Notes: generated by a model from the sequence alone, not told the origin. Counted from the stretch's first letter, positions 1 through 19,420 are shown. The stretch: 38,709 nt of DNA from Ilumatobacteraceae bacterium (GCA_025451395.1 JANWKM010000052.1:1-38709); one strand, 5' to 3'. A program made the numbers and translations.

Positions 1-24
1 GCCATTGCGAGGGCAGCGTAGGCG

Positions 25-4274: not shown

Positions 4275-4282
4275 CGTACGGC

Positions 4283-4288
4283 AGGAGG
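4283..4288 (+). promoter_or_regulatory. Strong Shine-Dalgarno (AGGAGG) for the DPM1-like GT2
   Basis: AGGAGG lies 7 bases before GTG 4296 and settles that start. It is notable because many genes in the window instead start from leaderless or stop-overlapping positions. Confidence 0.75.
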
Positions 4289-4295
4289 CGGCACT

Positions 4296-5006
4296 GTGTG
4301 GAACGGAAAGAGGTTGGCAGTGATCCTGCCCACCTATAACGAGGCGGACAGCATCGCGGAGTGCATCAACGCCTTCCACGAATTGGGCATCGTCGACGAC
4401 ATCCTCGTCGTCAACAACAATGCGCACCCCGATACGTCGCCAGCAGTGGCTAGAACGTTCGCGCGCGAAGTGTTCGAACCCACGCAGGGCTACGGCGCCG
4501 CAATCCGACGGGGCTTCAGCGAGACTGCCCTCTCCGATCTGGTGTGCGTGTGCGAGCCCGACGCGACGTTCGACCCGCGCGACATCTTGAAGCTGCTGCC
4601 GTTCACCGAAGACGTCGACCTGGTGCTCGGCTCGCGAACAGTGCAAACGTTCATTTTCAGCGGCGCCAACATGGGCGTCTTCCTACGCTGGGGTAACTGG
4701 GCAGTGGCGAAGTTCACCGAGGTGTTGTTCAACACCGTCTATTTGTCTGATGTTGGTTGCACGTTTCGCGTGATCACTCGCGCGGGGATCGATCGGATGA
4801 CGCCGGAGTTCCGTGGCAACGGCTCGTCGTTCGGTTTCGAGATGATGCTTCACGCTGCGCGCCTGCGTGTCCCGCTAGTGCAAGTGCCGGTCAAGTACCT
4901 TCCTCGCGTTGGCGAGAGTTCGGTGACCGGCGACCGCAAGAAGACATTTCGCTTAGGAATGGCGATGGTCGGTTTGCTCGTCCGCGAGCGTCTGCGTCGC
5001 AAGTAA
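4296..5006 (+). CDS. GT2 glycosyltransferase, polyprenyl-phosphate sugar synthase (DPM1-like)
   Basis: A 236-residue GT-A fold enzyme. LAVILPTYNEADSIAECI at the N-terminus is the nucleotide-binding start of family 2. CEPDATFDPRDI (about residues 86-97) replaces the usual DADGQHDP metal-binding segment, and GSRT and GCTFRVITR follow as in dolichol-phosphate mannose synthase-like enzymes. There is no C-terminal membrane anchor, so it resembles the soluble DPM1 type. The predicted job is to transfer a sugar from a nucleotide to polyprenyl phosphate on the cytoplasmic face, presumably for the GT-C gene just upstream (21 bp gap). The third aspartate position reads DATF rather than DGQ, so the donor may differ from the classical enzyme. 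Confidence 0.85.
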   Translation: MWNGKRLAVILPTYNEADSIAECINAFHELGIVDDILVVNNNAHPDTSPAVARTFAREVFEPTQGYGAAIRRGFSETALSDLVCVCEPDATFDPRDILKLLPFTEDVDLVLGSRTVQTFIFSGANMGVFLRWGNWAVAKFTEVLFNTVYLSDVGCTFRVITRAGIDRMTPEFRGNGSSFGFEMMLHAARLRVPLVQVPVKYLPRVGESSVTGDRKKTFRLGMAMVGLLVRERLRRK

Positions 5007-5010
5007 CCGG

Positions 5011-5925
5011 TTAACTGCGGATGCATTCCCACGTGACGAAGTGATACGGCGGTAGCCATCCCATCGCGGTGGCCTCCGCGTCGTCAGCCACAACCGTTAG
5101 GTCGTCGGGGCGGGCGCAGCGCACCATGTCGACGATGTCGAACACGTCGGTATTGAGTGGCATCTCACCTTCGCCGCGAAGCAAGCGGGCGAACGCGGCA
5201 GTGACAAGCACGGTCGTCGTGAAGCCGGCCTGACGCAACATCGCGGTGAGGTCCCATCCGAAGTTCCAATGCACGAGCGTGTTGTCGGCGTGATACTCCG
5301 GTTTCGAAGGCTTTGCGGTGTTGCCGCGCAGCAATGGCACCTGCAGGTACATCCGACCACCCGGCGAGAGGGCACGGTGAATCTCTCCGAGCGCGGCGGC
5401 GGTGTCGGGAACGTGTTCGAGCACGTGGGGCGTGAGCAGCAGGTCGATCGAGGAATCGGGCAGTGCCATGCTCTGCAGATCGATCTGGATGTCGGCTCGA
5501 TGGGCGCCAAGGTCGTAGTCGCTGGCCTGATAACGAAAGTGACGGTGCATCATTGCGCGATAGTCGGTTCCCATTCGAGGGCTGGTCTCGAGCACCCGCG
5601 CCCTGCGGGGCAGGCTCGACTGCGCTCGCGAACTGCACCACAGCAGAAAACGATCGCGTGCACAAGACTCACACACCGGGCAAATTGCAGACTCGGAATG
5701 TTCGATTCCGATAAAAGCTGCTCCCGACCAACCGCAAATGTTGCAGCGCCGTGGACCACCTGTATTCAGTCGGCCAACAGATCCGGTGCCTTGTGATATC
5801 CACCATTTGTCGGTCGGTAGCTCGAGGCCGACGCGACGCGCGATCGGCCTCAATCGCCAACGTATTCCGGCCGGCACCAACCTGCCGACGCGGCGTAGCG
5901 ACCGGACTACGAGGCGGCTCGACAT
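5011..5925 (-). CDS. SAM-dependent methyltransferase with N-terminal zinc ribbon
   Basis: A 304-residue protein. A four-cysteine cluster, CNIC and CPVCESC (about residues 60-88), suggests a structural zinc site. The methyltransferase core follows: VLETSPRMGTDY is a variant motif I, LQSMALPDSSIDLLLTPHVLEHVPD is the motif IV region typical of Methyltransf_11 proteins, and LSPGGRMYLQVPL is the later strand. The likely role is methylation of a sugar or a glycan end, given the neighbours. ATG 5925 is supported by TATACT 8 bases upstream with no Shine-Dalgarno, a leaderless arrangement. It converges on the GT2 gene with only 4 bp between the stops. The substrate is unknown. Confidence 0.8.
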   Translation of the reverse strand: MSSRLVVRSLRRVGRLVPAGIRWRLRPIARRVGLELPTDKWWISQGTGSVGRLNTGGPRRCNICGWSGAAFIGIEHSESAICPVCESCARDRFLLWCSSRAQSSLPRRARVLETSPRMGTDYRAMMHRHFRYQASDYDLGAHRADIQIDLQSMALPDSSIDLLLTPHVLEHVPDTAAALGEIHRALSPGGRMYLQVPLLRGNTAKPSKPEYHADNTLVHWNFGWDLTAMLRQAGFTTTVLVTAAFARLLRGEGEMPLNTDVFDIVDMVRCARPDDLTVVADDAEATAMGWLPPYHFVTWECIRS

Positions 5926-5933
5926 GTTGAGCG

Positions 5934-5939
5934 AGTATA
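5934..5939 (-). promoter_or_regulatory. -10 box TATACT for a leaderless methyltransferase mRNA
   Basis: TATACT read on the minus strand, 8 bases before ATG 5925. The match to the -10 consensus is excellent and there is no room for a 5' leader. No convincing -35 box is seen. Confidence 0.55.
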
Positions 5940-5959
5940 TGTGTGTGCAACCGGCCAGC

Positions 5960-5965
5960 TAACGT
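5960..5965 (+). promoter_or_regulatory. -10-like box TAACGT before the 92-residue gene
   Basis: TAACGT, 6 bases before GTG 5972. It is weaker than its divergent partner at 5934-5939, but the spacing matches the other leaderless starts here. Confidence 0.35.
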
Positions 5966-5971
5966 CGACGT

Positions 5972-6250
5972 GTGGCATCGATTTCCGGATTCGTCCGACG
6001 GTTGCGCGGGTTCAGCTCACTACCAGTCCAGGTTGCAGACTTGCGCGCGAAGGTCGACCAGATGCATAGCGTGCTGATGGCGTTGAACCACGAGGTGCAC
6101 AGTGGGTCCGAGGAAGCTCTCCCATTGTTCCTCGGTCATGCCGAGCGACTCCGGCTCGATGCCGACACCGCGATCGGTGCGGTGCAGGTGATCGAACGAC
6201 AGCTCGCCGAGCTGGAACAAGCGATTGCCGCGCTGCGCAGCAATGGCTGA
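5972..6250 (+). CDS. Small helical (coiled-coil) protein coupled to a GT4
   Basis: A 92-residue protein of unknown family. It has a basic N-terminus (MASISGFVRRLRGF) and then long alanine/leucine/glutamate-rich stretches with heptad-like spacing (VADLRAKVDQMHSVLMAL; IERQLAELEQAIAALRS). There are no membrane segments or catalytic motifs. Its stop lies 8 bp inside the following GT4 gene, so the two are translationally coupled and probably made together. A role as a scaffold, membrane-docking or length-control partner of the glycosyltransferase is only inference. The 80-residue protein at 13932-14174 occupies a similar position beside another glycosyltransferase. Confidence 0.65.
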   Translation: MASISGFVRRLRGFSSLPVQVADLRAKVDQMHSVLMALNHEVHSGSEEALPLFLGHAERLRLDADTAIGAVQVIERQLAELEQAIAALRSNG

Positions 6251-7616
6251 TGCACTTAGCCATCTCATCGTCGATGGCCGGACTGTTTGCCATCCCACCG
6301 GAGGGCCGCGCGGTATCGGCCGTTACGTGATCGGGTTGCTCTCCGGTCTTCGCCAAATTCACGCGCCCGTGATCGCGCTGTACGAGACGGAAGAACAGAA
6401 GTCGCTGTTGACCCGAGCCGTTCCCGACTTGGATCTGCGGCAATTGGAACCCGCAGTGATACGCGATCTCAGCGTGCCGGGCAGTTGGTATCTGGCTACA
6501 CAATTGATGCTGCACCCGATACCGCTCGACCCGGTGCCGCGCATCATCACCGACTCCGGATTGCCCGTGGCCGCCATCATGTACGACGTCATCAGGGAGC
6601 GGCACCCGGAGCTGTATCAGGTTCGCGCCGAGTCGCGCGCACAGGTCCTGATTCGCGGCATGCTGGCCCGCACACTCGATGCGCTGCTCGCCATCTCCGA
6701 CTTCGCCGCCGACACGGCCGCGGAGGAACTGCACTTCCCGCGTGATCGCATCACCATGATCGGTGCTGGCGTCGACCCGAAATTTGCACCCGCAGTCGAC
6801 GACCCGTGGCCACGGCTGCAGGGCGTCCTTCGCGCCGACCGGCGCCGCATCGTTGTCACTGTCACGGGCGAGGATCCGCGTAAGAACACCACTCGCCTGG
6901 CGCAGGCCTGGGCAACACTGCCTGCGACGCTGCGCCGTTCGCATCGGTTGGTGGTGATCGGTGATTCGGATGAGGTCGGGACTGCGGATGTCGATTTCAC
7001 TGGCCCGGTCACCGACGAACAGCTAGTAGCGATCTACCAATTCGCCGAGCTGGCGGTAATGCCGTCGACAGACGAGGGGTTCGGGCTGCCCGCGTTAGAA
7101 GCAGCAGCGTGTGGATGCGCAGTGATCACATCCAATGTGTCCGCACTTCCGGAAGTGCTTGCCGAACCCGCAGCACAGTTCGATCCCTACGACGTGACGG
7201 CAATAGCCGCAGCTGTCGAACGAGCGCTGATCGATTCAGCACATCGCGAGCTGCTCCTCGCCGCCGCGCAGCGCGCCTTGACGCGGTGGACGTGGACCAA
7301 CGTTGGGCGCGCCGTCGTGTCTTCGTTGGAAGAACTAGACCCCCGCCGAGTTCGCCAACTGCGCAAAGTTCCCTACCGCGTTGCTGTGACTGGCACGTTC
7401 GACGACTCGGTAATCGGGCGAGCGAACACTTCCCGAGTCCACGAGTTGGCGAAACAGTCACCGCTCGCGGAGATCACACTGCTCGTCGACAACTCCGCCA
7501 ACGACCATTCGACCAACGACCGTGCAACCAACGCGGGTCCACAGCGCTTCCCTGTGCGTGCCCTCGGACGATTCGTGCCGCGCTCACAATTCGATGAAGT
7601 GATCACGCTCGACTGA
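6243..7616 (+). CDS. GT4 family glycosyltransferase
   Basis: A 457-residue GT-B fold enzyme. The N-terminal Rossmann domain shows GGPRGIGRYVIGLL, the usual GT4 acceptor-side loop. The C-terminal domain shows TVTGEDPRKNTTRLAQAW (the conserved RKN region) and PSTDEGFGLPALEAAACGCAVITSN, the EX7E catalytic signature. The start is taken as ATG 6243, overlapping the upstream stop. About 85 residues after the GT-B domain (KVPYRVAVTGTFDD...FDEVITLD) look like the start of a further domain that stops abruptly. The same final segment recurs at 9821-9868, next to the following GT2 gene, so this 3' end appears rebuilt by the insertion at 7617-9820. Sugar specificity is unknown. Confidence 0.85.
   Translation: MADALSHLIVDGRTVCHPTGGPRGIGRYVIGLLSGLRQIHAPVIALYETEEQKSLLTRAVPDLDLRQLEPAVIRDLSVPGSWYLATQLMLHPIPLDPVPRIITDSGLPVAAIMYDVIRERHPELYQVRAESRAQVLIRGMLARTLDALLAISDFAADTAAEELHFPRDRITMIGAGVDPKFAPAVDDPWPRLQGVLRADRRRIVVTVTGEDPRKNTTRLAQAWATLPATLRRSHRLVVIGDSDEVGTADVDFTGPVTDEQLVAIYQFAELAVMPSTDEGFGLPALEAAACGCAVITSNVSALPEVLAEPAAQFDPYDVTAIAAAVERALIDSAHRELLLAAAQRALTRWTWTNVGRAVVSSLEELDPRRVRQLRKVPYRVAVTGTFDDSVIGRANTSRVHELAKQSPLAEITLLVDNSANDHSTNDRATNAGPQRFPVRALGRFVPRSQFDEVITLD
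7572..7616 (+). repeat. Direct repeat, copy 1 (3' end of the GT4 gene)
   Basis: The end of the GT4 gene, encoding FVPRSQFDEVITLD and stop. It matches 9821-9868 with about 38 of 44 aligned bases identical, including a run of 16. The two copies bracket the minus-strand surface-protein gene. Confidence 0.75.
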
Positions 7617-7618
7617 AA

Positions 7619-7630
7619 ACGCGTACGCGT
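7619..7630. repeat. 12-bp perfect palindrome at the insertion edge
   Basis: ACGCGTACGCGT is fully self-complementary and sits exactly between the GT4 stop and the stop of the minus-strand surface-protein gene. It lacks a loop and a U-tract, so it is not a normal terminator. It could be a protein-binding or recombination site; that is inference. Confidence 0.4.
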
Positions 7631-9693
7631 CAGATGACGTAACCAAAGACGTCGACAATGACGCCCGCATTTCCCGAGTCGTTATAAATCGAAAGTTGCC
7701 CATTGGCGCCCACTGCAACAATTGCCATATTCGGTACTGTGCGACCGGGGAACCAGTTGAGGGTCGACACGGTTGGCCGTGGTTGACCGGCCGGCCATAG
7801 CGTCAGCCACCCCCCAGCGCTCGGATCGGTGACGGTGATGTTGACGATGACGGCCTTGGCGCCGGAAGGAACGCCACCGAGACCGCCGATCTGGACATTT
7901 CGACTTTCGCCGGGACCGAGCTGCCCGATCGTCGTGTGCAGCCCATTGCGGGTGTCAAACACCCGGACTGGGTCCATGATCGTGGTGAAACCACCACCTG
8001 CACTGTAGTAGCCAAAGATGTCGACGATCAGGTCCATGTCGCTCTCGAACGCAGCCAACCGAATCTTGCCGTTCGTGCCCACCTTGACGACCGCCGAATT
8101 GGCGCGGGTTCCTCCCGCAAAGACGTTCAGGTTCGATGCAATCGGCAACGCCTCGCCGTCTGGATATGCCGTGACATAGCCGCCGAGTGGCGCATACGCG
8201 CTGGTGATGTTCACGACCACCGACTTCGCGTTCGCGGGTATCCCCTTCGTGCCGGCTACGAGCAGCGCCCGATTGTCTCCCGGATGAAAACGGCCGATTG
8301 TGTCACCAATCCCGTTGCGTGTATCCATCAAACGAACCGGTGGGATTCCGGTGAATCCCAATCCGCCGGGGGCCGTGAGTGCAGCACTCGTGTCGAAATA
8401 GCCAGCGACGTCGGCAAGCACGTGCATACCCGCGAAGCCCGAGTAGTTGAAGCGAATGGTGCCGCCAGCACCGACCTTCACCAAAACGAGGTTCGGTGTG
8501 ATCTCACCGAGCGCGAAGTTGAGATTCGACGTCCCCGGAATTACACCGAAGGTTGCTTGATCGGCGAAGATGCCACCCAACGCGTCTGTCGCCGGAGGGC
8601 GCGGATACGCAGAAAGGAACCCGCCGCTGGAAGACGCGATGGCAGTGACGTTGAGCAGCACCGCCGACACGCCGGCCGCTGGGATTCCGGCTACGCCCGT
8701 GACCTTCAATTGGTGGTTGAGCAGCGTTGCACGACGCGTATAACCGTTACCCGAACTCGAGCGACCGTCTCCTGGCGTCATCACCCCGGTGATTCCGATA
8801 TTGCTACGACTGTCGAGAATGCGAGTAGGAGTGAGCGGATGGAAACCACCCGGAGGCGCTGCGCCCGGTGCGCCGGACATGTAAACGCAGAGATACAGGC
8901 CAAAACATGACGCGTCGAGATCTATTGTTTGCACCTGACCTGGGGCAAGCTCCATATAGCCCTGGACCTTGCGGCCAGTTTGAGTGTCCGTTACGAACGC
9001 GAGGTAGTGCCCCGGCCATCCGACGCCGCCAGTCCACTGGTTGCCTTTGCTTTTTGAGTAAGTAAACGCTCCGACCTTTGCGCCCGTGCCCGTGACCTTC
9101 GGTTGGACGCACACGTCGGGAGGAATGCATTCGATTTGAAACAGAATGACTTCCACGCGGTTATTCGGCACCGCGGAGGACGAGACGATGTCGCCTGTTA
9201 TCCGAAATCCACCGTCGACACCGACAGTCGGGAGTGGAACAACTCCAAAGTTCGCGAAGCCAGCGCCGTCCTTGGCCGCTTCTCGCTGCGAGTGGGCCCC
9301 ACCGGCATTGCCAACCCAGGGGTCGTACCAGATGCCTTCCGGGTAGAGCTCGAGGCGGACCAAACTCAGCCCCGCGCCACCACAGCCAAGTCCGGGATTC
9401 GGGACTTGCGTGGGGTTCAACCCCACAAATACCGAAGGGTTCGCATTAGAGAATTGGCCGGCAGAATTCCAGTTGTACGAACCGTCGTATCCTGAACCAT
9501 CGGGCGAATTGCCCCCGCAGCCTCCGTAGTACGCATCGATGTCTGCCAGCCCGCCGGTACCGGGGTTCCCTATCGAGAAAGTGACGTTGGCAACTCCCGC
9601 GGACGCGGTCTGCACCCCAACAAGAGAGACGGTCGTGACGGCGCTCGCAAATAGCGCCAGCACACATGCTCCGCGTCGGATTTGGTGGGTCAT
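7630..9693 (-). CDS. Secreted cell-surface protein with three ~120-residue repeats
   Basis: A 687-residue protein. A Sec signal peptide is clear: a basic start (MTHQIRRG), a hydrophobic core and a likely cut after ASA near residue 32. Residues ~35-280 form a Gly/Asn/Cys-containing domain I do not recognise. Three homologous repeats follow at about 286-435, 450-570 and 573-687. Each opens with R(I/L/V)xD(S/T)RxxI/L, has an (A/V)VxxN(V/I)T strand and SxLN, and ends DVxGYx. Such repeats are frequent in exported proteins of Acidimicrobiia and related actinobacteria. No LPXTG or membrane anchor is present. A Shine-Dalgarno (AGGAG, 9700-9704) supports ATG 9693. The gene runs against its neighbours and splits a glycosyltransferase operon, so it was probably inserted. 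Its function may be adhesion or surface-layer association; unproven. Confidence 0.85.
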   Translation of the reverse strand: MTHQIRRGACVLALFASAVTTVSLVGVQTASAGVANVTFSIGNPGTGGLADIDAYYGGCGGNSPDGSGYDGSYNWNSAGQFSNANPSVFVGLNPTQVPNPGLGCGGAGLSLVRLELYPEGIWYDPWVGNAGGAHSQREAAKDGAGFANFGVVPLPTVGVDGGFRITGDIVSSSAVPNNRVEVILFQIECIPPDVCVQPKVTGTGAKVGAFTYSKSKGNQWTGGVGWPGHYLAFVTDTQTGRKVQGYMELAPGQVQTIDLDASCFGLYLCVYMSGAPGAAPPGGFHPLTPTRILDSRSNIGITGVMTPGDGRSSSGNGYTRRATLLNHQLKVTGVAGIPAAGVSAVLLNVTAIASSSGGFLSAYPRPPATDALGGIFADQATFGVIPGTSNLNFALGEITPNLVLVKVGAGGTIRFNYSGFAGMHVLADVAGYFDTSAALTAPGGLGFTGIPPVRLMDTRNGIGDTIGRFHPGDNRALLVAGTKGIPANAKSVVVNITSAYAPLGGYVTAYPDGEALPIASNLNVFAGGTRANSAVVKVGTNGKIRLAAFESDMDLIVDIFGYYSAGGGFTTIMDPVRVFDTRNGLHTTIGQLGPGESRNVQIGGLGGVPSGAKAVIVNITVTDPSAGGWLTLWPAGQPRPTVSTLNWFPGRTVPNMAIVAVGANGQLSIYNDSGNAGVIVDVFGYVI

Positions 9694-9699
9694 CTCAGG

Positions 9700-9704
9700 C
9701 TCCT
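9700..9704 (-). promoter_or_regulatory. Shine-Dalgarno AGGAG for the surface-protein gene
   Basis: AGGAG on the minus strand, 6 bases before ATG 9693. It shows this gene has a 5' leader, unlike most flanking first genes. Confidence 0.65.
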
Positions 9705-9809
9705 AGGGGACTTATGTACAGATTCTGTCGCAACATCATCGGCAGGTGGCCGCGGGGTCAACCGTGTGTTTATTGGCAAGATCTCGCAGGGCGAGCACGA
9801 GGCCTTCTG

Positions 9810-9815
9810 TACAAT
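9810..9815 (+). promoter_or_regulatory. -10 box TACAAT ahead of the downstream GT2
   Basis: TACAAT, 8 bases before GTG 9824, which opens a 14-codon reading frame ending in the GT2 start. The same hexamer and spacing precede GTG 23221. It could re-supply transcription to the GT2-GT4 pair cut off by the insertion. The nearest -35-like TTGGCA (9773-9778) is too far away (31 bases). Confidence 0.45.
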
Positions 9816-9820
9816 CCCGG

Positions 9821-9868
9821 TTCGTGCCGCGCTCACCGTTCGATGACGTGACCAGGCGCGACGGTTGA
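9821..9868 (+). repeat. Direct repeat, copy 2, forming a leader mini-ORF
   Basis: A second copy of the GT4 3' end. In the matching frame it reads FVPRSPFDDVTRRDG and stop (TGA 9866-9868). From GTG 9824 this gives a 14-residue leader peptide, MPRSPFDDVTRRDG. Its stop overlaps the TTG start of the GT2 gene (TTGA), so it may work as a translational coupler retained from the original gene junction. Confidence 0.6.
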
Positions 9869-11217
9869 ACACTCCCCTCATACGCGTCGTCGTGCTCACC
9901 TTCGACGGCGGCCAAATGACGCTGGACTGCCTGGATTCGTTGCTCGCCACCGATTGGCCGACCGACAAGCTGCAGATAGTCGTCGTCGACAACGGGTCTC
10001 TCGACGATGTGGCCGAGCGGGTGCGTGCCGAATACCCGCAGGTTGAGCTCGTCGAACCACTGGAGAATCTCGGATTCGCGGGTGGCTGCAACCTCGGGAT
10101 GCGCCCGCCGGGAGAGCACGAATTCATTGCGCTCGTCAATAACGACGCCACCGTCGAGCCCACCTGGTTGCGTCCATTGGTAGACGTCGCAAATTCGGCG
10201 CCTGACATCGGCGCGGTGAGTCCGAAGATGGTCTTCGCCGACCGCTTCCTCGGCGTCGATCTGGTCGTCCCCGGTGTCAGCACGTCCAAGAGCGGCAAGC
10301 CTGAAAAGGGTGTTCGAGTCTCTGGCGTACGTATCGATGGTGTGCGCGCCGACAATCGCGTCTCGTTCAATGAGGACTTCTACGGGGCCGACCAGCCCGA
10401 TCTCGAAATTGGCGAGGAGTTGGGACGTTGGACCTGCGGGCGCGGTTCAATCTTCATCTCGCTCGATCCCGGCGAAGCACGGCCACAGACGTTGTCGCTG
10501 CGGCTGAGCAATGTTGAACATCGGACCGTCACGCTCTCCTCTGCGACGGCGCAGCAGACAATCGAAACCGACATCGAGGCACAGTGGTTCGACATCGCCC
10601 TCGATGGCGAACCATTCGATGTCATCAACAACGCGGGGTCCAATCTCTATCGCGGTGGATTCGGCGGAGATCGTGGTTTTCTCGAACGCGACCTCGGCCA
10701 GTACGAACAACCAGCCGAAGTGTTCGCCTGGTGTGGTGGAGCCGTGTTATTGAAACGCGACTACCTCGAGCAGGTTGGCCTGTTCGACGAGCACCTGTTC
10801 CTGTACTACGAGGACACCGACCTCTCATGGCGTGGCCGCTTACGCGGCTGGCGTTACCTGTTCGAACCGACCTCGGTCGTGCGTCACCGTCACGCGCAAT
10901 CATCGGGTGTCGGCTCACCGACATTTCGCTTCTACACCGAACGAAATCGAATGCTGGTCCTGGCCAAAAATGCACCCGCGCGGGTGGCATTGCGCGCCGG
11001 GCTGGGCGAGATTCGCCGCTTCGTTCGCTCGACATTGAGCGGATATGTCGGAAGGCCGATACGACTGCAAATGCCCGAGCGCAGCGTTCCCGCGCACCGG
11101 CGTCGCGTGTTGACCAGTTACCTGCGTCTATTACCCGCCATGTTGCGCGATCGTCGCGCCACCGAGCCGGTGGTGAGCCGTCGAGATCTCATGACGTCGT
11201 GGGAAGTGACGAAGTGA
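9865..11217 (+). CDS. GT2 family glycosyltransferase with an inserted beta-rich region
   Basis: A 450-residue enzyme. IRVVVLTFDGGQMTLDCLDSL and VVVDNGS (to about residue 47) are the nucleotide-binding start, ALVNNDATVEP (about 89-99) carries the metal-binding position, and FDEHLFLYYEDTDLSWRGR with VRHRHAQSSG is the rhamnosyl/galactofuranosyl-type acceptor and catalytic end. Between about residues 125 and 275 is an extra segment rich in beta-type sequence (FISLDPGEARPQTLSLRL...), longer than the usual ~50-residue linker. TTG 9865 is taken as the start because the conserved N-terminus begins only a few residues later and it overlaps the leader mini-ORF stop. The stop shares one base with the next ATG (TGATG). 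Sugar and linkage are unknown. Confidence 0.85.
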   Translation: MNTPLIRVVVLTFDGGQMTLDCLDSLLATDWPTDKLQIVVVDNGSLDDVAERVRAEYPQVELVEPLENLGFAGGCNLGMRPPGEHEFIALVNNDATVEPTWLRPLVDVANSAPDIGAVSPKMVFADRFLGVDLVVPGVSTSKSGKPEKGVRVSGVRIDGVRADNRVSFNEDFYGADQPDLEIGEELGRWTCGRGSIFISLDPGEARPQTLSLRLSNVEHRTVTLSSATAQQTIETDIEAQWFDIALDGEPFDVINNAGSNLYRGGFGGDRGFLERDLGQYEQPAEVFAWCGGAVLLKRDYLEQVGLFDEHLFLYYEDTDLSWRGRLRGWRYLFEPTSVVRHRHAQSSGVGSPTFRFYTERNRMLVLAKNAPARVALRAGLGEIRRFVRSTLSGYVGRPIRLQMPERSVPAHRRRVLTSYLRLLPAMLRDRRATEPVVSRRDLMTSWEVTK

Positions 11218-12386
11218 TGGCAGCGCGGCCCAGGGTGGCGATCTACAACCTGTACTGGACGACTTACGGCGGCGGCGAGCAGGTCGCGGGTGCCATCGCG
11301 TTGGCGCTCCTCCCCGATCACGATGTCGTCCTACTCGGGCCCGAGCCGATAGACCTCGCAGCAATGCGCGACCGTCTTGGCCTCGACCTCTCGCAATGCG
11401 GTTACGAGCGCGTGATCGATGACGAGACCGCCTCGGCGGCGAGCGCCGGCTACGACTTGTTCGTCAACGCGACCTACCTCAGCTCGGCACCGAATCTCGC
11501 TAAGCGAGGCGGGTTCTACTACGTGTACTTCCCGGGCTCGCCAAGCACCCGTTATCAACGTGTCGGGCAGGCAATGGCGCGTGGGCTGGCCACATCATTG
11601 CGCCCAGTCGGCATCCCTCGGATTAGGCGAGTGCACGACGGTCTCGAGCGACGCGCGGCGCGCACCGACTGGACGCGCAACTACGCCACGTTCTGGTGCA
11701 CCTCGACGTTCACCGCGAAATGGATCGAGCGCCTATGGAAGGTGCGCGCGGAAGTCCTCTATCCGCCGGTCCGACCGGACGTACTGCCGGGGACAAAGGC
11801 GAACACGATTACTTCGGTCGGCCGTTTCTTCGATCCCAAGTTCGGCCATTGCAAGAAACAACTTGATCTCTTGCGCGCGTTCATCGAGCTCGAACATGTC
11901 GGTGCCGATGGATGGCGGCTGGAATTGATCGGCGGTGCCGACGCCCTGAGCCGCGACTACGCCCTCGCTGTTCGTCGCGAGGCTCGCGGTCACGCCGTCG
12001 GCGTTCACTTCAACGCACCCCGATCATTAGTGCGCAGCACTCTCGCCGCGGCAAGCATTTATTGGCACGGAACGGGCTACGGCGAGGGCCCCAACAAGCA
12101 CCCCGACCGCTTCGAACATTTTGGAATCGCAGTCGTGGAAGCGATGGCGGCCGGTGCCGTGCCCGTGGTCTTCGGCGTTGCCGGGCCAGCAGAGATTGTT
12201 CGCCACGGCATCGACGGCTTTCAATGGCGCACGATGGACGAGCTTGTGCACTACACGAGTCAGCTAGTGGCTGATCGAGATCTGCGCGTGAAGATGGCAG
12301 CCAGCGCTCAAGAACGAGCGAAGCACTTCTCGGACGAAGTGTTCGCGGCTCGCGTGCGCTCAGCCGTCGGTTGCTCCGCGCTGTAG
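11217..12386 (+). CDS. GT4 family glycosyltransferase
   Basis: A 389-residue GT-B enzyme. The N-terminus has YNLYWTTYGGGEQVAGAIA, the glycine-rich acceptor loop. TSVGRFFDPKFGHCKKQLDLLRAF opens the C-terminal nucleotide-binding domain. WHGTGYGEGPNKHPDRFEHFG followed by IAVVEAMAAGAVPVVF is the GT4 EX7E signature, with the extended loop seen in mannosyltransferase-like members such as ALG11. ATG 11217 shares one base with the GT2 stop, so I reject longer upstream starts that overlap the GT2 gene. The 3' end overlaps the opposite-strand membrane gene by 27 bp. It probably adds one residue of the glycan backbone in the cytoplasm. Confidence 0.87.
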   Translation: MAARPRVAIYNLYWTTYGGGEQVAGAIALALLPDHDVVLLGPEPIDLAAMRDRLGLDLSQCGYERVIDDETASAASAGYDLFVNATYLSSAPNLAKRGGFYYVYFPGSPSTRYQRVGQAMARGLATSLRPVGIPRIRRVHDGLERRAARTDWTRNYATFWCTSTFTAKWIERLWKVRAEVLYPPVRPDVLPGTKANTITSVGRFFDPKFGHCKKQLDLLRAFIELEHVGADGWRLELIGGADALSRDYALAVRREARGHAVGVHFNAPRSLVRSTLAAASIYWHGTGYGEGPNKHPDRFEHFGIAVVEAMAAGAVPVVFGVAGPAEIVRHGIDGFQWRTMDELVHYTSQLVADRDLRVKMAASAQERAKHFSDEVFAARVRSAVGCSAL

Positions 12387-13712
12387 CAGCGCGCGTGCGC
12401 GGGCTTGCACCTCGCCCCAACGAGCCCGCGGTGTGAGCTGCACGATCACACCAAGCGCGACGATGCCGATCAGGGTTCCGAACAGGATTTGCGAGGCGCC
12501 TGGCCACACCTCCCTGTCCCATGTCGGCGACAGCAGCGATGAGTACTCGCCGGAATACCAACAGAGCGGTACATAGCGGAAATTCTCCAAGCGGCAAAAG
12601 AGATCGGTGCGCGGCGTGATGTAGTACGCCGCACCGACAATCCCGACCCACGCAGTCCACAGCGTCAACAGGACAGCACCGAGCCACGTGCGCAACGACC
12701 GGCCAACCTGGAGTTGCGTGCATAACGCTGTGGCGGCAGGCACCACACCAATGAGGAAGAACCGGGGTCCGAACGACACACCCCCGTACCAAGCCCACCA
12801 CTTCGAGTAAATGGGAATCATCGCCACCACGATCAGCGTGAGGCACCAACGCCATTGGGCCACCGCGTCGTCGGGCTGCGGTGCGCGGCGGAAGAATCCA
12901 GGTTGATACCACAACAACCCGCGCCCGAGTGAGAAGAGAATGCCGACGAGACCGAACAAGAATGGGTAACCGAAACCCGCCACATGACCCCAAGGCAGCA
13001 GTTGAAAGTTGGTCTCATCCCCTGGGTCGCTGCCGTACTTGGACAGGCTGAGGTGGCCAGTCGTGATCGAGGCATCGACAACCATCCACGCCGCGGCAAT
13101 TGCGCACGAGATCAGCAGCGCAGAGTTGCGCCGGCGCCACCACAGCAACACGGCAGCGGCACCACACGCGACCGCGAGCACGGGGATGATGGCGATGCCG
13201 ATGCCGGTGACCACAATGCCCGACACCTTTTGCGCTCGGCTGCGGGCATCGACGATTAGCAGGATCCCCGCCGAAGCGATCATCATCGACAGCGCCTCAG
13301 CGTTGAACGATGTGACGTAGCCAGTGAACATCGAGCCGGTCGCAAGAGCCACCACGCCCACCCCGAAACGTCGACCTCTGAGCCGAGAGAGCCGGCTGCC
13401 GATCCAGAGCGACCACGGAATCCACACAAGGGTGACAAAATTGTCGAGCAGGAAACTTCCCATTCCGACGGCTCGGCCAAGTCGGTAGGGCAAGACGGCG
13501 AGCAGGGGCATGACCAGGGAGTACTTCACCGTGTGCCAATGCCCGGCGGCCAGATCAAGGGTGGCCAAGCTGCGTCGGTTGTCGTCGAAGGAAGGGTGCG
13601 CAGGCAGCCACACCATCAGCGCGGCCACGGCGACGACAGCGATCACGGCGGCTATGCGATTCTGGGTCGTTCGACCCACGATTGAACGACCCTGCCCCCA
13701 GAATTTCCGCAC
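12360..13712 (-). CDS. Polytopic membrane protein, GT-C/GT87-like
   Basis: A 450-residue protein with about ten to eleven hydrophobic helices. LGRGLLWYQPGFF and SKWWAWYGGVSFGPRFFLIG (roughly residues 275-345) match a pattern shared with the protein at 36353-37963 (GKGLLWYAP, GENAYGPRYLIP), so the two are relatives. This family of bacterial GT-C-like membrane proteins is assumed to use polyprenyl-phosphate sugar donors. The first loop has HPSFDDNRR, a plausible acidic motif. GTG 13712 is supported by a TACACT box 8 bases upstream. It has its own promoter, not one shared with the minus-strand genes upstream of it. The function is predicted only at family level. Confidence 0.7.
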   Translation of the reverse strand: MRKFWGQGRSIVGRTTQNRIAAVIAVVAVAALMVWLPAHPSFDDNRRSLATLDLAAGHWHTVKYSLVMPLLAVLPYRLGRAVGMGSFLLDNFVTLVWIPWSLWIGSRLSRLRGRRFGVGVVALATGSMFTGYVTSFNAEALSMMIASAGILLIVDARSRAQKVSGIVVTGIGIAIIPVLAVACGAAAVLLWWRRRNSALLISCAIAAAWMVVDASITTGHLSLSKYGSDPGDETNFQLLPWGHVAGFGYPFLFGLVGILFSLGRGLLWYQPGFFRRAPQPDDAVAQWRWCLTLIVVAMIPIYSKWWAWYGGVSFGPRFFLIGVVPAATALCTQLQVGRSLRTWLGAVLLTLWTAWVGIVGAAYYITPRTDLFCRLENFRYVPLCWYSGEYSSLLSPTWDREVWPGASQILFGTLIGIVALGVIVQLTPRARWGEVQARARALLQRGATDG

Positions 13713-13720
13713 GAACTGCG

Positions 13721-13726
13721 AGTGTA
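13721..13726 (-). promoter_or_regulatory. -10 box TACACT for the leaderless membrane gene
   Basis: TACACT on the minus strand, 8 bases before GTG 13712; no Shine-Dalgarno is present. Confidence 0.5.
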
Positions 13727-13732
13727 ATAGCG

Positions 13733-13744
13733 GGCAGTACTGCC
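13733..13744. promoter_or_regulatory. 12-bp palindrome inside a promoter spacer (possible operator)
   Basis: GGCAGTACTGCC is perfectly self-complementary and begins 6 bases upstream of the TACACT -10 box, filling the -35/-10 spacer. A repressor bound here would block RNA polymerase. Inference from position only. The rest of the 219-bp gap (13745-13931) shows no gene that I can support. Confidence 0.4.
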
Positions 13745-13931
13745 AAAACTCCGTCTGCCCTCTACGGCCCGGTTCGCATCGCGCGGTTTGGAACTAGTCC
13801 GCTGCGAGGCCCGCTTTCTGCCGTTGACAATGAAGTCGCGGCTGTCGTTCGGGCATCGGTTGGTTCCATTGTACCTGCGTCTTCCCTATCGACCGCTCGC
13901 GGGCCAGATGCTGGTAGTTGCGCAACGTCCT

Positions 13932-14174
13932 CTATGAACTCTTCTTGCGGTCCTCGAGCGCGGCAGACTCAAGAGCGGTCAGCCTGCTGCCGATCGATGC
14001 CGACATTTCGGTGATCAGGCGTTGCAGTACCGCGATCGGCTCCTCGAGTCCCCGCATGCGCTTCTCCAGCACTTCGTTGCGCCAATCGAGTTGCGCGTCG
14101 ACCCGCGCGCTGACCATTCTGTTCAGCAAGCCACGAATCGGACCGGTCTTCTTGCTCTCGATCAAGTTGTCCAA
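13932..14174 (-). CDS. Small coiled-coil protein coupled to a glycosyltransferase
   Basis: An 80-residue protein of no recognised family. It is highly charged, with heptad-like leucine and isoleucine positions (NEVLEKRMRGLEEPIAVLQRLITEM, then IGSRLTALESAALEDRKK), so it is probably one long helix or an oligomeric coiled coil. There is no signal or membrane segment. Its start lies 13 bp inside the end of the 792-residue glycosyltransferase gene on the same strand, indicating coupled translation. Together with the 92-residue protein at 5972-6250 it forms a pattern of small helical partners beside glycosyltransferases. Function unknown. Confidence 0.65.
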   Translation of the reverse strand: MDNLIESKKTGPIRGLLNRMVSARVDAQLDWRNEVLEKRMRGLEEPIAVLQRLITEMSASIGSRLTALESAALEDRKKSS

Positions 14175-16540
14175 ATCTCCTTTAGGCGATCACGCATCCT
14201 TGCGCCACACCGCTCAAGAGAGTAGTTCTCGCGCAGCCGAGTCTGGCCCGCAATGCCAAGTTGGCGCGCCTTCTGCGGTTCATCGAACATCGCGCGCATC
14301 AGTTCCGACGCGTGCCCCAGGTCGGGTTCCGCCCAAGTCGCTCCTGGCCGATAAGGATGAGCGGTTTTCGGAACGGTCGTCGGCTGCCAGCGCACTAGCC
14401 GGGCAACGTCGGGCGTTGTGAAATCGACGTTGCCGGAGTAGTCGGTAGCGATGACAGGCTTACCCAGCAACATCGCTTCGGCGATCGTCAGGCCGAGGCC
14501 CTCCGAGCGGTGCAGCGACACGTAGCAATCGCTGAGGTTCGTCAACGAGCCAGCGCTCACATTGTCGAACACTTCGTCGATGACGACGATGTCTGCCCGG
14601 TCGCGGCACGCCCATCGCAGACGCTCGACCTTTTCCAAATTTGACCGGCCATTCATCGTCTTCAGCACCAGACACGCGCCATCGGTCGGTGCGAAGGCAT
14701 CGCGGTACGCCGAAACCAGTCCATCGGGATTCTTGCGTTCGAACACACTCCTCATGTCCCAACTGAATAGGAACATGAAACCGTCCGGCAGACCGAACGA
14801 GGCTCGCGTATAGATCGGATCGACGACTGGAGCGGACATCGGGATCGGCATGTGGGTGACCGCAACCCTTCGCGGAGCCACTGCGGCAACGGAATCGCGC
14901 ACGAACATCGACGCCGCCCACACCTCGTCCACACATCTGAAGGCCCCGCGATACGCAGTCGGGAACTCGGCGAGCTCCCAGTACCACTGTGCAATCACAT
15001 AGCGACCATCGATGAACGCCGCACCCAAGTCATCTTGCACGATCGCGATCTGATCGGCGTTGACACCCATCATCACGGTGTCGTACCGCGCAATGTTGTC
15101 CGTCGCAAAAGCGACCTCTTGCCGGTTCAATGTGCGGCGCGTCGTAACGGTTGCAACCGGGACCTCACTCGCGACGAGTGCGGCACACGTCAGCCGGGCT
15201 GACTCGCCGACACCGAGCTCGGCATTCAAGTAGCCAACAAAGTTGACACCGTGCTCGGCGGTACCACCCTCGTGCCATTGCACACCCCCGGCTGGAGTCG
15301 ACGCGGGAAGCCACCCGAGGAATGCCAACATCTCGGACTCCGCACCGCCGAAGCTACGCACCCACGCGTGCAATGTCGAAAGGTCGCCGCTCGCGATTTC
15401 AGGCGTGCACTGCTGCACATCAGCCCGAGTTGACCAAAACGCCGCCAGATAGCGCGGAAGCGGCAGACGCTCGACGGGCGACTGCCCGGTCAGCCATTGC
15501 ATGAAGGCTTGCGTGTTCCCAGGCTTGAACGGCGACGGCGGCATGTCGCCTTTGCCGGCGTCGGCGAGCAGCACTTCGTCGCGGAACATGCGCCGCACTT
15601 CGTCGCTCAACGTTAAGCCCGGGATGACTTGCGACCATCCGTACGGCAGCGGTGAGGTTTCGGACGTGAGCGCAAGCAACTTTGCGCGATAGTTATTGAA
15701 CAATTCGACGAGCAGCGGCTGCTCGCTCAGCAGAACCCTCGGCAGCCACGTCTGGTGTTTGCTGATCCAGTGTGGTCGTTTCGGGTCATAGCCCGAGAAA
15801 TGGAAGAAACGCAGCGGCTCGTCGTCGACCCAATAGCGGCCTTGCTCGCGTCGTAACGTGCGTCGATCGAGGTTCCAGTATGCGACGTTGTAACCCGGGT
15901 TGGTCTCGATGTGCGGGCAGAACAACGGTATCGACAGGTCGATCCAGCGTTGGTCGGTGAATAGGTGATTCGCCGGATCGGTGATCGCGTCGCGTCGCAA
16001 TCGTGTGGACCACCAATCGAGAAACGGCTGGGCGCCCTGCGCGACCCCGATGTAACCCAGGTTGTAGACCCCCGCTGACATGATGCTGGCCTCGTCCGGC
16101 TGACAGCCGTCGCGTTCGATCGGTGCCGCGGTGTGCGGCGTCAACGAAATGCCCGCCTGCATGGTTGCCGCGACAATTGGATCCAACGTGTCGAACACCT
16201 CGATGTCGGGGTCGAGGTACAGCACGCAGTCCGCCGTCCGCAGGAAGTGACGAAGCACGAATGGCTTGCACGCCGTCGCAAGCTCGGTCACCTCGTAATA
16301 CGTCGCCATGTGCTCAAAGCCCTCGTCACCGAAGTCGATGTCGGAGATCGGAACCAGCCGGCAATCGTCGCGCTGTCGCAGTTTCACCTGCAGCGGGTAG
16401 TCGGTGACGACGATGTAAAAGCGAGAATTCGGGTGGTAAGCCAGAAAGGAGTCGGCGACGATGCTGGCTCGCGGGATGTAGTTGTGTGCGACGATCGTCA
16501 ACGCCACCAGGTCAGGTGAGTTGGTCCGACTGTCCGCCAT
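14162..16540 (-). CDS. Two-domain glycosyltransferase (GT8-like plus GT4)
   Basis: A 792-residue fusion. Residues ~8-290 form a GT-A domain: LTIVAHNYIPRASIVADSF, then VLYLDPDIEVFDTLD, where DPD is the metal-binding DxD, then YNLGYIGV and YNVAYWNLDRR, as in GT8-like and related enzymes. Residues ~440-790 form a GT4 GT-B domain: GYLNAELGVGESAR, SWDMRSVFERKNPDGLVSA (the RKN region) and HRSEGLGLTIAEAMLLGKPVIAT (EX7E). Having two active sites suggests sequential addition of two sugars. ATG 16540 follows a TAGAGT box by 6 bases. The 80-residue coiled-coil gene overlaps its 3' end. Donors are unknown, and the GT8 assignment of the first domain is less certain than the GT4 one. Confidence 0.83.
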   Translation of the reverse strand: MADSRTNSPDLVALTIVAHNYIPRASIVADSFLAYHPNSRFYIVVTDYPLQVKLRQRDDCRLVPISDIDFGDEGFEHMATYYEVTELATACKPFVLRHFLRTADCVLYLDPDIEVFDTLDPIVAATMQAGISLTPHTAAPIERDGCQPDEASIMSAGVYNLGYIGVAQGAQPFLDWWSTRLRRDAITDPANHLFTDQRWIDLSIPLFCPHIETNPGYNVAYWNLDRRTLRREQGRYWVDDEPLRFFHFSGYDPKRPHWISKHQTWLPRVLLSEQPLLVELFNNYRAKLLALTSETSPLPYGWSQVIPGLTLSDEVRRMFRDEVLLADAGKGDMPPSPFKPGNTQAFMQWLTGQSPVERLPLPRYLAAFWSTRADVQQCTPEIASGDLSTLHAWVRSFGGAESEMLAFLGWLPASTPAGGVQWHEGGTAEHGVNFVGYLNAELGVGESARLTCAALVASEVPVATVTTRRTLNRQEVAFATDNIARYDTVMMGVNADQIAIVQDDLGAAFIDGRYVIAQWYWELAEFPTAYRGAFRCVDEVWAASMFVRDSVAAVAPRRVAVTHMPIPMSAPVVDPIYTRASFGLPDGFMFLFSWDMRSVFERKNPDGLVSAYRDAFAPTDGACLVLKTMNGRSNLEKVERLRWACRDRADIVVIDEVFDNVSAGSLTNLSDCYVSLHRSEGLGLTIAEAMLLGKPVIATDYSGNVDFTTPDVARLVRWQPTTVPKTAHPYRPGATWAEPDLGHASELMRAMFDEPQKARQLGIAGQTRLRENYSLERCGARMRDRLKEIWTT

Positions 16541-16546
16541 GGCCGA

Positions 16547-16552
16547 ACTCTA
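16547..16552 (-). promoter_or_regulatory. -10 box TAGAGT, leaderless start at 16540
   Basis: TAGAGT on the minus strand, 6 bases before ATG 16540. It is one half of a divergent pair with 16607-16612. Confidence 0.4.
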
Positions 16553-16606
16553 CCGGCGCCGCGAATGGGCTCCGCTCCTCATCGTCTGAGGCACGGCCTA
16601 CCGAAC

Positions 16607-16612
16607 TACATT
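16607..16612 (+). promoter_or_regulatory. -10 box TACATT, leaderless start at 16620
   Basis: TACATT, 7 bases before GTG 16620, with no Shine-Dalgarno between them. It supports this start for the methyltransferase-like gene and probably drives wzm-wzt too. Confidence 0.5.
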
Positions 16613-16619
16613 CGGCGCG

Positions 16620-17318
16620 GTGGACAATCCTCGATACTCGTTAGCGGTGCGCAAATGGGATGTCATCGACACACTGCGGCGTCAGCACGGGTTGCACTCA
16701 CTCGCGCAAATTCTCACTCCGTCAACGGGCCGCGACATGCATGGGCGGCCCGAGTTGGCGCGGTTCGGCGCCGTGACCACCCTGATGTACGCGGGCGAAC
16801 CAATTCAACGCGATATCGAGGACACGAGACAACTGCCGACTCTGGACGAATTGATCGCGTGGAGGCGAGCCAACCCGCTCGAAGTTGAACTCGTGTTCAT
16901 CGACTGTTGGCATTCGTACGATGACTCGGTGCGCGTACTAGAACTCGCGCTCTCGATGCTGCCGCGCGGTGGATTCATTGTCATGCACGACTGCGATCCA
17001 CCCGACGCGGAAGTTGCGGGGCCAGCACCCGAACACGGCGGCGGCGAATATTGGTGCGGCGACTCGTGGCGAGCCTTCGTTGATGTCACTGCATCGCTCG
17101 TCGGATGTGAGTGGTTCGTGGTCGAATCCGACTTTGGCATCGGCGTCATCACAGTCGCGCCACCCCGACGCACGCTGCTGAAAAAACGACGTATACGCCG
17201 TAAGAAGCAAGCACCCGAAGGGCACGAGGCCGGGTGGAACTGGCTCGTAGAACATCGCAGCGATGTCTTGCACCCGATGTCGATCGCCGACTGGCAGAGG
17301 CGGGCAACAACCCCATAA
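16620..17318 (+). CDS. Class I methyltransferase-like protein (Methyltransf_24 type)
   Basis: A 232-residue protein. VELVFIDCWHSYDDSVRVLELALSMLPRGGFIVMHDCDPP (about residues 90-130) is the central and distal part of a Rossmann methyltransferase as seen in Methyltransf_24 proteins. The usual glycine-rich SAM loop is not obvious; HSLAQILTPSTGRDM (about 26-40) occupies its place. It may therefore be a divergent enzyme. A basic patch (LLKKRRIRRKKQ, about 182-193) lies near the C-terminus. The gene ends 18 bp before the exporter gene wzm, so it probably belongs to that transcription unit and may modify or cap the exported glycan. The catalytic claim is moderate. Confidence 0.65.
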   Translation: MDNPRYSLAVRKWDVIDTLRRQHGLHSLAQILTPSTGRDMHGRPELARFGAVTTLMYAGEPIQRDIEDTRQLPTLDELIAWRRANPLEVELVFIDCWHSYDDSVRVLELALSMLPRGGFIVMHDCDPPDAEVAGPAPEHGGGEYWCGDSWRAFVDVTASLVGCEWFVVESDFGIGVITVAPPRRTLLKKRRIRRKKQAPEGHEAGWNWLVEHRSDVLHPMSIADWQRRATTP

Positions 17319-17336: not shown

Positions 17337-18221
17337 GTGCAGGCTCAGTACAATCCGTGGGCCATGTCTCTTCGCCGTGCGATGGCCCATCGCAACCTCC
17401 TGTACCTGCTATCGCTCAAGGAGCTGCGTACCCGCTACAAGAAATCGGTGTTGGGTTGGGCTTGGAGCCTGTTCAACCCGCTCAGCCAGATGCTGATCTT
17501 CACGATCATCTTCACGTACGTGTTCGTTGCCAAGCCGGCCGCCGGCGACCCCAGCGGACTCACAAACTTCCCGCTGTATTTTCTCGCCGGCCTGCTGCCG
17601 TGGAACTTCTTCTCGATCACGACGAGCGTTGCGATGTCCAATGTGCAGGCCGGGTCTGGACTGATCAAGAAGGTCGCCTTCCCTCACGAGCATTTGGTGT
17701 TTTCGGTTCTGATCGCTCAGTTCGTCACGCTGCTGATCGAGACAGCGATCCTGCTGATCGCTCTGCTGATCGCCAGCCAGAACGTGCTAGTTGGCCACTT
17801 TCAGGGCGAGTCGTCCTCGACTGGCCACAACGTCTTGGTGTGGGTACCCGTCATTCTCCTCATCTATGGACTGTGGGCTTTTTTCACCGCTGGTGTGGCA
17901 TTAGCGCTGAGCGCCTTCAACGTGTTCTTTCACGACGTTCAGTATCTGTGGACGATCCTGTCGCAAATGATTTTCTATGTAACACCGGTGATCTACTTCA
18001 CAAGCCGGCTACCCGACGTGCTCGTCGGTCGCGTGTTGAAGACCGTCGCCAGCTGGGGGCCAACCGGGAGCTTCATCGTGGCATCTCACAATCTCTTTTA
18101 CGACGGCCGTATGCCTCCCGCCTTGCTCTTGTTGTACCTCGCGGGCTTGGCCATCGTTACGTTCACGCTGGGCATGTGGATCTTCGGGCGGCTGTCGCCC
18201 AGGTTCGCGGAGGAGATGTGA
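17337..18221 (+). CDS. wzm: ABC-2 type polysaccharide export permease
   Basis: A 294-residue inner-membrane protein with six hydrophobic helices. LKELRTRYKKSVLGWAWSLFNPLSQM (about residues 28-53) is the classic entry motif of O-antigen/teichoic-acid export permeases (Wzm/TagG). ALSAFNVFFHDVQYLWTILSQMIFYVTPVIYF is the conserved later part. It would form the channel that moves a lipid-linked glycan across the membrane with the ATPase encoded next; the stop shares one base with that ATG. The start is GTG 17337 or ATG 17364. A TACAAT box at 17349-17354 would fit a leaderless start at 17364 (9-base spacing), so the shorter form is possible. Confidence 0.92.
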   Translation: MQAQYNPWAMSLRRAMAHRNLLYLLSLKELRTRYKKSVLGWAWSLFNPLSQMLIFTIIFTYVFVAKPAAGDPSGLTNFPLYFLAGLLPWNFFSITTSVAMSNVQAGSGLIKKVAFPHEHLVFSVLIAQFVTLLIETAILLIALLIASQNVLVGHFQGESSSTGHNVLVWVPVILLIYGLWAFFTAGVALALSAFNVFFHDVQYLWTILSQMIFYVTPVIYFTSRLPDVLVGRVLKTVASWGPTGSFIVASHNLFYDGRMPPALLLLYLAGLAIVTFTLGMWIFGRLSPRFAEEM

Positions 18222-19420
18222 TGTCTGATCCAGCGATCATTCTCACCGTCGATCACCTCGTTAAGTCGTTTCGCATCCATCACCAAAAATCGAACTCGCT
18301 GAAATCACTGATCGCCGGCAAAGCTCGCAACAGGTTCGAGGACTTCACCGCCGTCGACGACGTCACGTTCGAGGTGCGTGAAGGCGAGGTCTTCGGCATC
18401 ATCGGGCAGAACGGCTCGGGCAAGAGCACGCTATTGAAATGCATGGCCGGCATCTTGCAGCCGAACTCAGGCAGCGTGCACGTGTTTCGTCGCATGGGCG
18501 CGTTGCTGGAACTCGGCGCAGGTTTTCACCCCGATCTCAGTGGGCGCGAGAACGTGTTCCTCAATGCGGCCATTCTCGGAATGGGCCGCAAAGAAATCAC
18601 GGCCCGCTTCGACGAAATTGTCGACTTCTCCGGGCTGCACACGTTCATCGATCAGCCAGCAAAGACCTACTCATCGGGCATGTACGTGCGACTTGCGTTC
18701 GCAGTTGCTATCAACGTCGATCCGCAACTGCTGATCGTCGACGAAATTCTCGCGGTCGGCGACGTCAGCTTCCAGCGGCGATGTCTCGAGAAGTTCGTCG
18801 AGTTCCGTAACGAGGGCCGAACGATCGTGCTCGTCACGCACGACATGACCGGCGTCAAGAGTTTGTGCGACCGGGCCATCTGGCTGGAACGCGGAAAGGC
18901 CATCGATGAGGGCGACCCCAGTGACCTGGTTGAGGCGTACACCGAGCGCATGCTCGGTGCCGAGGCACCCGCTGCCGATGGAAGCGTGCGCCGGGGTTCG
19001 GGCGAGATCAAGATCGTTCAGATCGAGATGTTCGTCAACGGTGAGACAACCTCGGTGAAGCGCTGTCGTACAAGCGACGACGTTGTCATTCGACTGCACT
19101 ACGAGGCAGAGAAGTCGATCCCGCAACCGGTGGTTGGCATCGAGATCGAAGCACTCGGAGGTGCCACGGTAACCGCACCGAACACACGAGATGTCGGACT
19201 GGTGCCGGCGACGATGTCGGGAACTGGTGTGATCGATATCGCCTTCGCCAACATTTCATTACTGCCGGGCACCTATGACATTCACACGAATATTTCTGAC
19301 TTCACGCGGGCGATCGTCTACGACAATCTGCACGAGGCGCTTCGGTTCGATGTTTTGACCGGAAAGCCATACGAAACCGGTGGCGCCATCACCATGCGCC
19401 CCGACTGGACGCTGCCCTAG
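18221..19420 (+). CDS. wzt: ABC transporter ATPase with C-terminal glycan-binding domain
   Basis: A 399-residue protein. The ATPase domain (residues ~5-245) has Walker A GQNGSGKST at 62-70, a YSSGM signature in place of LSGGQ as usual for Wzt/TagH, Walker B LLIVDEILAVGD and the switch histidine in VLVTHD. Residues ~260-399 form a beta-rich Wzt_C-like domain (IKIVQIEMFVNGETTSV...GTYDIHTNISD), known in other Wzt proteins to recognise the modified non-reducing end of the glycan. This implies that chain ends are modified before export. The start ATG 18221 shares one base with the wzm stop. The 3' end overlaps the opposite-strand gene by 4 bp (CTAG). Confidence 0.93.
   Translation: MSDPAIILTVDHLVKSFRIHHQKSNSLKSLIAGKARNRFEDFTAVDDVTFEVREGEVFGIIGQNGSGKSTLLKCMAGILQPNSGSVHVFRRMGALLELGAGFHPDLSGRENVFLNAAILGMGRKEITARFDEIVDFSGLHTFIDQPAKTYSSGMYVRLAFAVAINVDPQLLIVDEILAVGDVSFQRRCLEKFVEFRNEGRTIVLVTHDMTGVKSLCDRAIWLERGKAIDEGDPSDLVEAYTERMLGAEAPAADGSVRRGSGEIKIVQIEMFVNGETTSVKRCRTSDDVVIRLHYEAEKSIPQPVVGIEIEALGGATVTAPNTRDVGLVPATMSGTGVIDIAFANISLLPGTYDIHTNISDFTRAIVYDNLHEALRFDVLTGKPYETGGAITMRPDWTLP

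Follow-up and report, generated by a model that had tools for sequence, protein, structure and literature searches.

The window, as the whole analysed stretch of 38,709 nucleotides is called here, derives from a single MAG of the Ilumatobacteraceae (G000), which is 63%-complete and comprises 177 contigs. Its plus strand carries the glycosyltransferase gene GT4a (MADALSHL..., 6243..7616), whose product matches Pfam Glycos_transf_1 (1.2e-23) and lacks the C-terminal second domain of the wider family. On the minus strand follows S (7630..9693), encoding a secreted protein of 687 aa with DTR...DVxGY repeats and preceded by the Shine-Dalgarno motif AGGAG at 9700-9704, as the preliminary description of this DNA had reported for an oppositely oriented gene at this place. 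The plus strand then continues with two further glycosyltransferase genes, GT2 (9865..11217; Pfam Glycos_transf_2, orthologues), which starts with TTG, and GT4b (11217..12386). Positions 12360..17318 harbor genes for the membrane protein D450 (-), M (-) and a Methyltransf_24 protein (+), and are followed by K (17364..19420, +), which encodes an ABC-2 permease and an ATPase of the polysaccharide exporter type (Pfam ABC2_membrane and orthologues; the ATPase part was recognized by sequence).

For S an all-beta structure was predicted (pLDDT 81). A whole-chain search of the PDB with this model returned no meaningful match (TM about 0.1), and a Pfam search of S gave no match. The family to which S belongs is a large one of secreted, all-beta proteins with DTR...DVxGY repeats, for which there is no Pfam model and which has 8-58 matches per genome in the genus.

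The preliminary description had pointed out that the end of GT4a recurs in front of GT2, and this was borne out. Copy 1 of the repeat (7569..7613, +) is the 3' end of GT4a and copy 2 (9818..9862, +) adjoins GT2, with 38/45 identical bases, whereas the second-best match of the 45-mer, slid over both strands of the whole window, reached 26/45. Both copies are in the same reading frame: FVPRSQFDEVITLD and a stop codon terminate GT4a, FVPRSPFDDVTRRDG and a stop codon terminate copy 2, and the TGA of copy 2 overlaps the start codon of GT2 as TTGA, again as described before. At the 9 residues common to both copies all codons are identical (9/9), while 46-52% of conserved-residue codons are identical between the window and its closest relative, G004, in the genes around the repeat. 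Moreover, a shortening by 6 nt relative to G004 is common to both copies. Because of this codon identity and the shared shortening, the duplication probably postdates the split between the window lineage and G004. Every base difference between the copies alters an amino acid, as expected if one copy was freed from the old protein sequence.

In the wider family GT4a is ~780 aa long and carries a second domain ahead of GT2 (frames in L056, L058, L065 and L069), into which it runs via the same motif (...GRYVPMHDFDEVVVALGSS...). Sequence comparison indicates that this second domain was lost in the clade formed by the window together with G001, G004 and G011, leaving a stub, and what had been noted as the end of GT4a is that domain-loss stub. 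A GT4a shortening of a similar kind is present in L070-type loci.

To place the repeat in context, the window was compared with 15 genomes of the genus and 222 of the family, the named relatives of the locus being Ilumatobacteraceae and other Acidimicrobiia MAGs. The closest relative was G004 (locus L054, JAIOPC010000014), and G001 and G011 were the other close relatives compared. The incomplete genome of the window lacks rpoB, secA, recA and a full alaS; with substitute markers (dnaE-type polymerase, ppdK, nuoL) the window was marginally nearest to G004, tree support being weak or none. In the relatives GT4a leads straight into GT2 with no S between them: in G004, GT4a terminates with ...GACGCGTGAACACTCC and overlaps the GT2 start as GTGA, and in G001 and G011 the two genes are adjacent. 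Window positions 1-7605 align to L054 2295-9984 and positions 9818-12402 to L054 9948-12531, so that both alignments include L054 9948-9984, a 37-bp stretch of G004 that corresponds to both repeat copies. S (7630-9699) aligns to L054 13591-15648. Homology to G004 thus stops at 7605 and restarts in S at 7630, and the junction (7614..7629) that connects the end of GT4a with the 3' end of S, and that lacks GT2-GT4b, lies within this gap. S between GT4a and GT2 was seen in no relative among the 15 genus and 222 family genomes, and the derived gene order is known from one genome, that of the window. The repeat is tied to the event, and neither the repeat in the absence of S nor S at this place in the absence of the repeat was found in any relative.

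Where S is located in the relatives was incompatible with the earlier proposal that it is a captured cassette. In G004, G001 and G011, S lies directly downstream of GT4b and beside K, with the same strand orientation as in the window, and it follows GT4b in about ten further Ilumatobacteraceae loci (L057-L062, L069, L074, L075, L077, L083, L098). It had been suggested to look for the same gene elsewhere with other flanking repeats; the orthologues were instead found at the same neighboring site next to GT4b. In the S tree the window and G004 group together (100/99 support), followed by G001 and the more distant G011. Since the orthologues occupy a neighboring site and the tree agrees, S is, on the evidence of synteny and phylogeny, a resident and vertically inherited gene of the cluster. 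Absences are complementary in the window, as GT2-GT4b is not found between GT4a and S, and S is not found between GT4b and K. Orientations are the same in the ancestral and the derived state (S minus, GT2-GT4b plus). Gene order thus indicates that, in the lineage of the window, S and GT2-GT4b exchanged positions while each kept its orientation.

The other end of the relocated piece was found to be duplicated as well. The conserved -10 region of K forms the end of the S-K intergenic region in the relatives (CTGTACAATCCCTGATTCCCATG in G004, CAGTACAATCCCTGCCCGCATG in G001, AAGTACACTGCCGCGCCGATG in G011), and the -10 region of K in the window itself is CAGTACAATCCGTGGGCCATG, with the TACAAT box at 17349..17354 (+). 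The same -10 region, TCTGTACAATCCC, is present at 9806-9818, where it directly abuts repeat copy 2 and places a second TACAAT box (9810..9815, +) ahead of GT2. The novel junction 9817/9818 joins the copy of the K -10 region to the GT4a end, with TACAATCCC at the junction. Hence both segment ends are doubled, the GT4a end at 7569 and 9818, and the K -10 region at 9806 and 17345. The 13-mer TCTGTACAATCCC and the element TCATCGGC, both in the intergenic region 9694..9817, are common with the K promoter of G004. In a full-length alignment of the S-K intergenic region with that of G004 the score was reached by 7% of shuffles and thus fell short of significance, in line with weak similarity beyond the 13-mer, short conserved elements excepted. 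These comparisons indicate that the moved piece consists of S and its whole upstream intergenic region, and that the K promoter is present twice.

A sequence common to positions 9795 and 17222, GCACGAGGCC, was judged to be a chance match. A TACAAT on the minus strand at 13873, upstream of D450, is followed by an ATG 11 nt later, the same layout as that of the K promoter. Elsewhere TACAAT is rare, with 2 occurrences in 800 kb of G004.

Independent origin of the repeat or of the promoter 13-mer, by chance or convergence, might be considered, given that -10 boxes are short and that a displaced GT2 needs some promoter. However, the repeat copies match at 38 positions against 26 for the next best 45-mer, and the 9-mer GTACAATCC occurs in the window at 9809 and 17348 only, both on the plus strand, once each in the G004 and G001 loci, and nowhere on either strand of 800 kb of other G004 DNA. 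As in addition the flanking GT and CCC lie outside the -10 consensus, we regard coincidence as extremely improbable. A chimeric assembly is scarcely more credible. The locus comes from one incomplete and fragmented MAG, but an assembler would not be misled by two copies that differ by 16%, the two junctions coincide with biologically meaningful positions (the GT4a end; the K -10 box), and all frames are intact.

The doubled promoter also bears on the reading put forward in the preliminary description, in which S transposed as a cassette and its insertion produced a long target-site duplication. S does lie exactly between the two 45-bp copies, and relatives do show empty sites, just as in a target-site duplication. 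Unlike in such a case, no terminal inverted repeats are present at the ends, and no transposase-type ORF was found between the repeats, which confirms the earlier remark that no transposase is visible. The repeat is diverged, and target duplications as long as 45 bp are unusual. The gene is a local resident whose orthologues sit after GT4b and do not vary in their flanks. Finally, the far-end promoter is doubled too; cut-and-paste movement is disfavored because it would have stripped K of its promoter, yet K retains its own copy. A short flank duplication upon insertion is thus disfavored, and transposition of S appears very unlikely.

We consider a tandem duplication followed by reciprocal loss to be the likely course of events and the best explanation of the locus, with GT2-GT4b equipped with the duplicated K promoter and a leaderless leader stub. 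The ancestral order, common to G004, G001 and G011, would have been GT4a-GT2-GT4b-S(-)-K promoter-K. A segment that begins with the final ~45 bp of GT4a and ends shortly beyond the K -10 box would have been duplicated in tandem; of the inferred tandem intermediate, the first copy would then have lost GT2-GT4b and the second S. The outcome would be the order GT4a-S(-)-K promoter-[GT4a end]-GT2-GT4b...K promoter-K, in which S appears to have moved 2.5 kb upstream with unchanged orientation and is flanked by the repeat of the GT4a end. This path is favored because it predicts the two doubled ends, the novel junction 9817/9818 and the unchanged orientations. None of the 15 genus and 222 family genomes showed an intermediate that retains the two copies in full; such a state would be short-lived.

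The old S site shows no clean scar. It is filled by D450, M and the methyltransferase gene, and therefore further events happened. In G004 this site holds an FkbM-like gene and S. M (14162-16540) and a small downstream ORF lie before K in the window and after K in G004, and are found beside T353 in G004 and G001. A search around M for duplicated flanks, which could account in the same way for the swap of M and K, found none.

The new genes at the old S site would be accounted for by a single event if a block from a sister lineage (GT4a end, GT2, GT4b, D450, M and the methyltransferase gene) had been inserted after the K promoter and the resident GT2-GT4b deleted, the repeat then representing two alleles of the GT4a end. 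In line with such an import, the trees of GT2, GT4b and M unite G004 and G001 with the window outside, whereas by S, MT and most housekeeping proteins the window is nearest to G004. Protein identity for GT2, GT4b and M is 81, 75 and 77% between G004 and G001 vs 70, 68 and 68% between the window and G004, and the only good relative of D450 in the genus is found in a distant member, G014. However, the 9/9 identical codons and the shared 6-nt shortening make the two repeat copies each other's closest relatives. The codon identity of GT2, GT4b and M to G004 is, in addition, no lower than that of the resident genes, so that faster protein change suffices, and import followed by loss seems unlikely to us. 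The window versions of GT2 (residues ~100-250) and GT4b are far more divergent than those of G004 and G001 are from each other, which possibly reflects a changed specificity or import.

Under tandem duplication and reciprocal loss, GT2-GT4b was severed from GT4a and would have retained a promoter because the duplication junction fused the K promoter to the GT4a stub. At this junction a GTG located 8 nt after TACAAT opens a frame of 14 codons (fMPRSPFDDVTRRDG; predicted leaderless leader ORF, 9824..9868, +), whose stop overlaps the GT2 start. To see how common such an arrangement is, TANNNT was scanned upstream of 151 G004 genes with free upstream DNA (L178-L197). At 6-9 nt before the predicted starts 16 matches were obtained, vs 14 across positions 10-49 together, and because of this peak leaderless promoters seem common, and normal, in the lineage of G004 (Acidimicrobiia). 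A generic sigma-70 scan, which does not cover TANNNT promoters, gave one promoter-like hit and none at the junction, and a terminator scan found fewer terminators than in shuffles. GT2-GT4b probably now runs from the duplicated K promoter.

Since GT2 has a TTG start and no clear Shine-Dalgarno motif, initiation at the leader GTG and coupling through TTGA are the natural reading of this arrangement. The stub would be read as a short leaderless ORF that delivers ribosomes to the overlapping TTG of GT2. The duplication junction may in this way be a working expression device, composed of a K promoter copy and a scrap of GT4a that serves as a leaderless leader, with a GTG that works without a Shine-Dalgarno motif and passes ribosomes to the TTG; the remnant would then be kept because translation needs it. 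We put this forward as plausible, though somewhat short of probable.

Duplication followed by reciprocal loss is a known route to changes of bacterial gene order, described as the SNAP hypothesis, in which duplication can also put a gene under another promoter (PMC7055797), and a duplication-loss process (TDRL) is known from mitochondria (PMC5122201). The path proposed here resembles both in the tandem duplication, the different losses from each copy, the new order with orientation kept and the remnants at the boundaries. It differs in that a gene-scale segment of ~5 kb with no end repeats is involved, whereas in those systems repeats bound duplicated stretches of tens of kilobases or more, and in that the junction itself apparently became the regulatory region of the displaced half of the operon. 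In Actinobacteria, leaderless genes carry a TANNNT box a few bases ahead of an ATG or GTG start, and in mycobacteria short ORFs are common at the 5' ends of mRNAs (PMC3160421, PMC3898074, PMC4633059). The TANNNT a few nt before the GTG at 9824 matches this pattern; unlike in those cases, the predicted ORF would be the remnant of a glycosyltransferase gene that had been duplicated.

While the process is known, this instance is new and unusually complete. Changes of bacterial gene order are usually inferred from the before and after states alone. Here the duplicated segment has left both of its ends, so that the path, in which a segment is duplicated, a promoter is joined to a stub and opposite parts are lost, can be read in one sequence, and a flanking repeat need not signify an insertion element. 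The interest of the case lies in the junction, possibly reused as promoter and leader ORF, which would show how a promoter and a translation start can be gained together by one half of an operon that has been interrupted.
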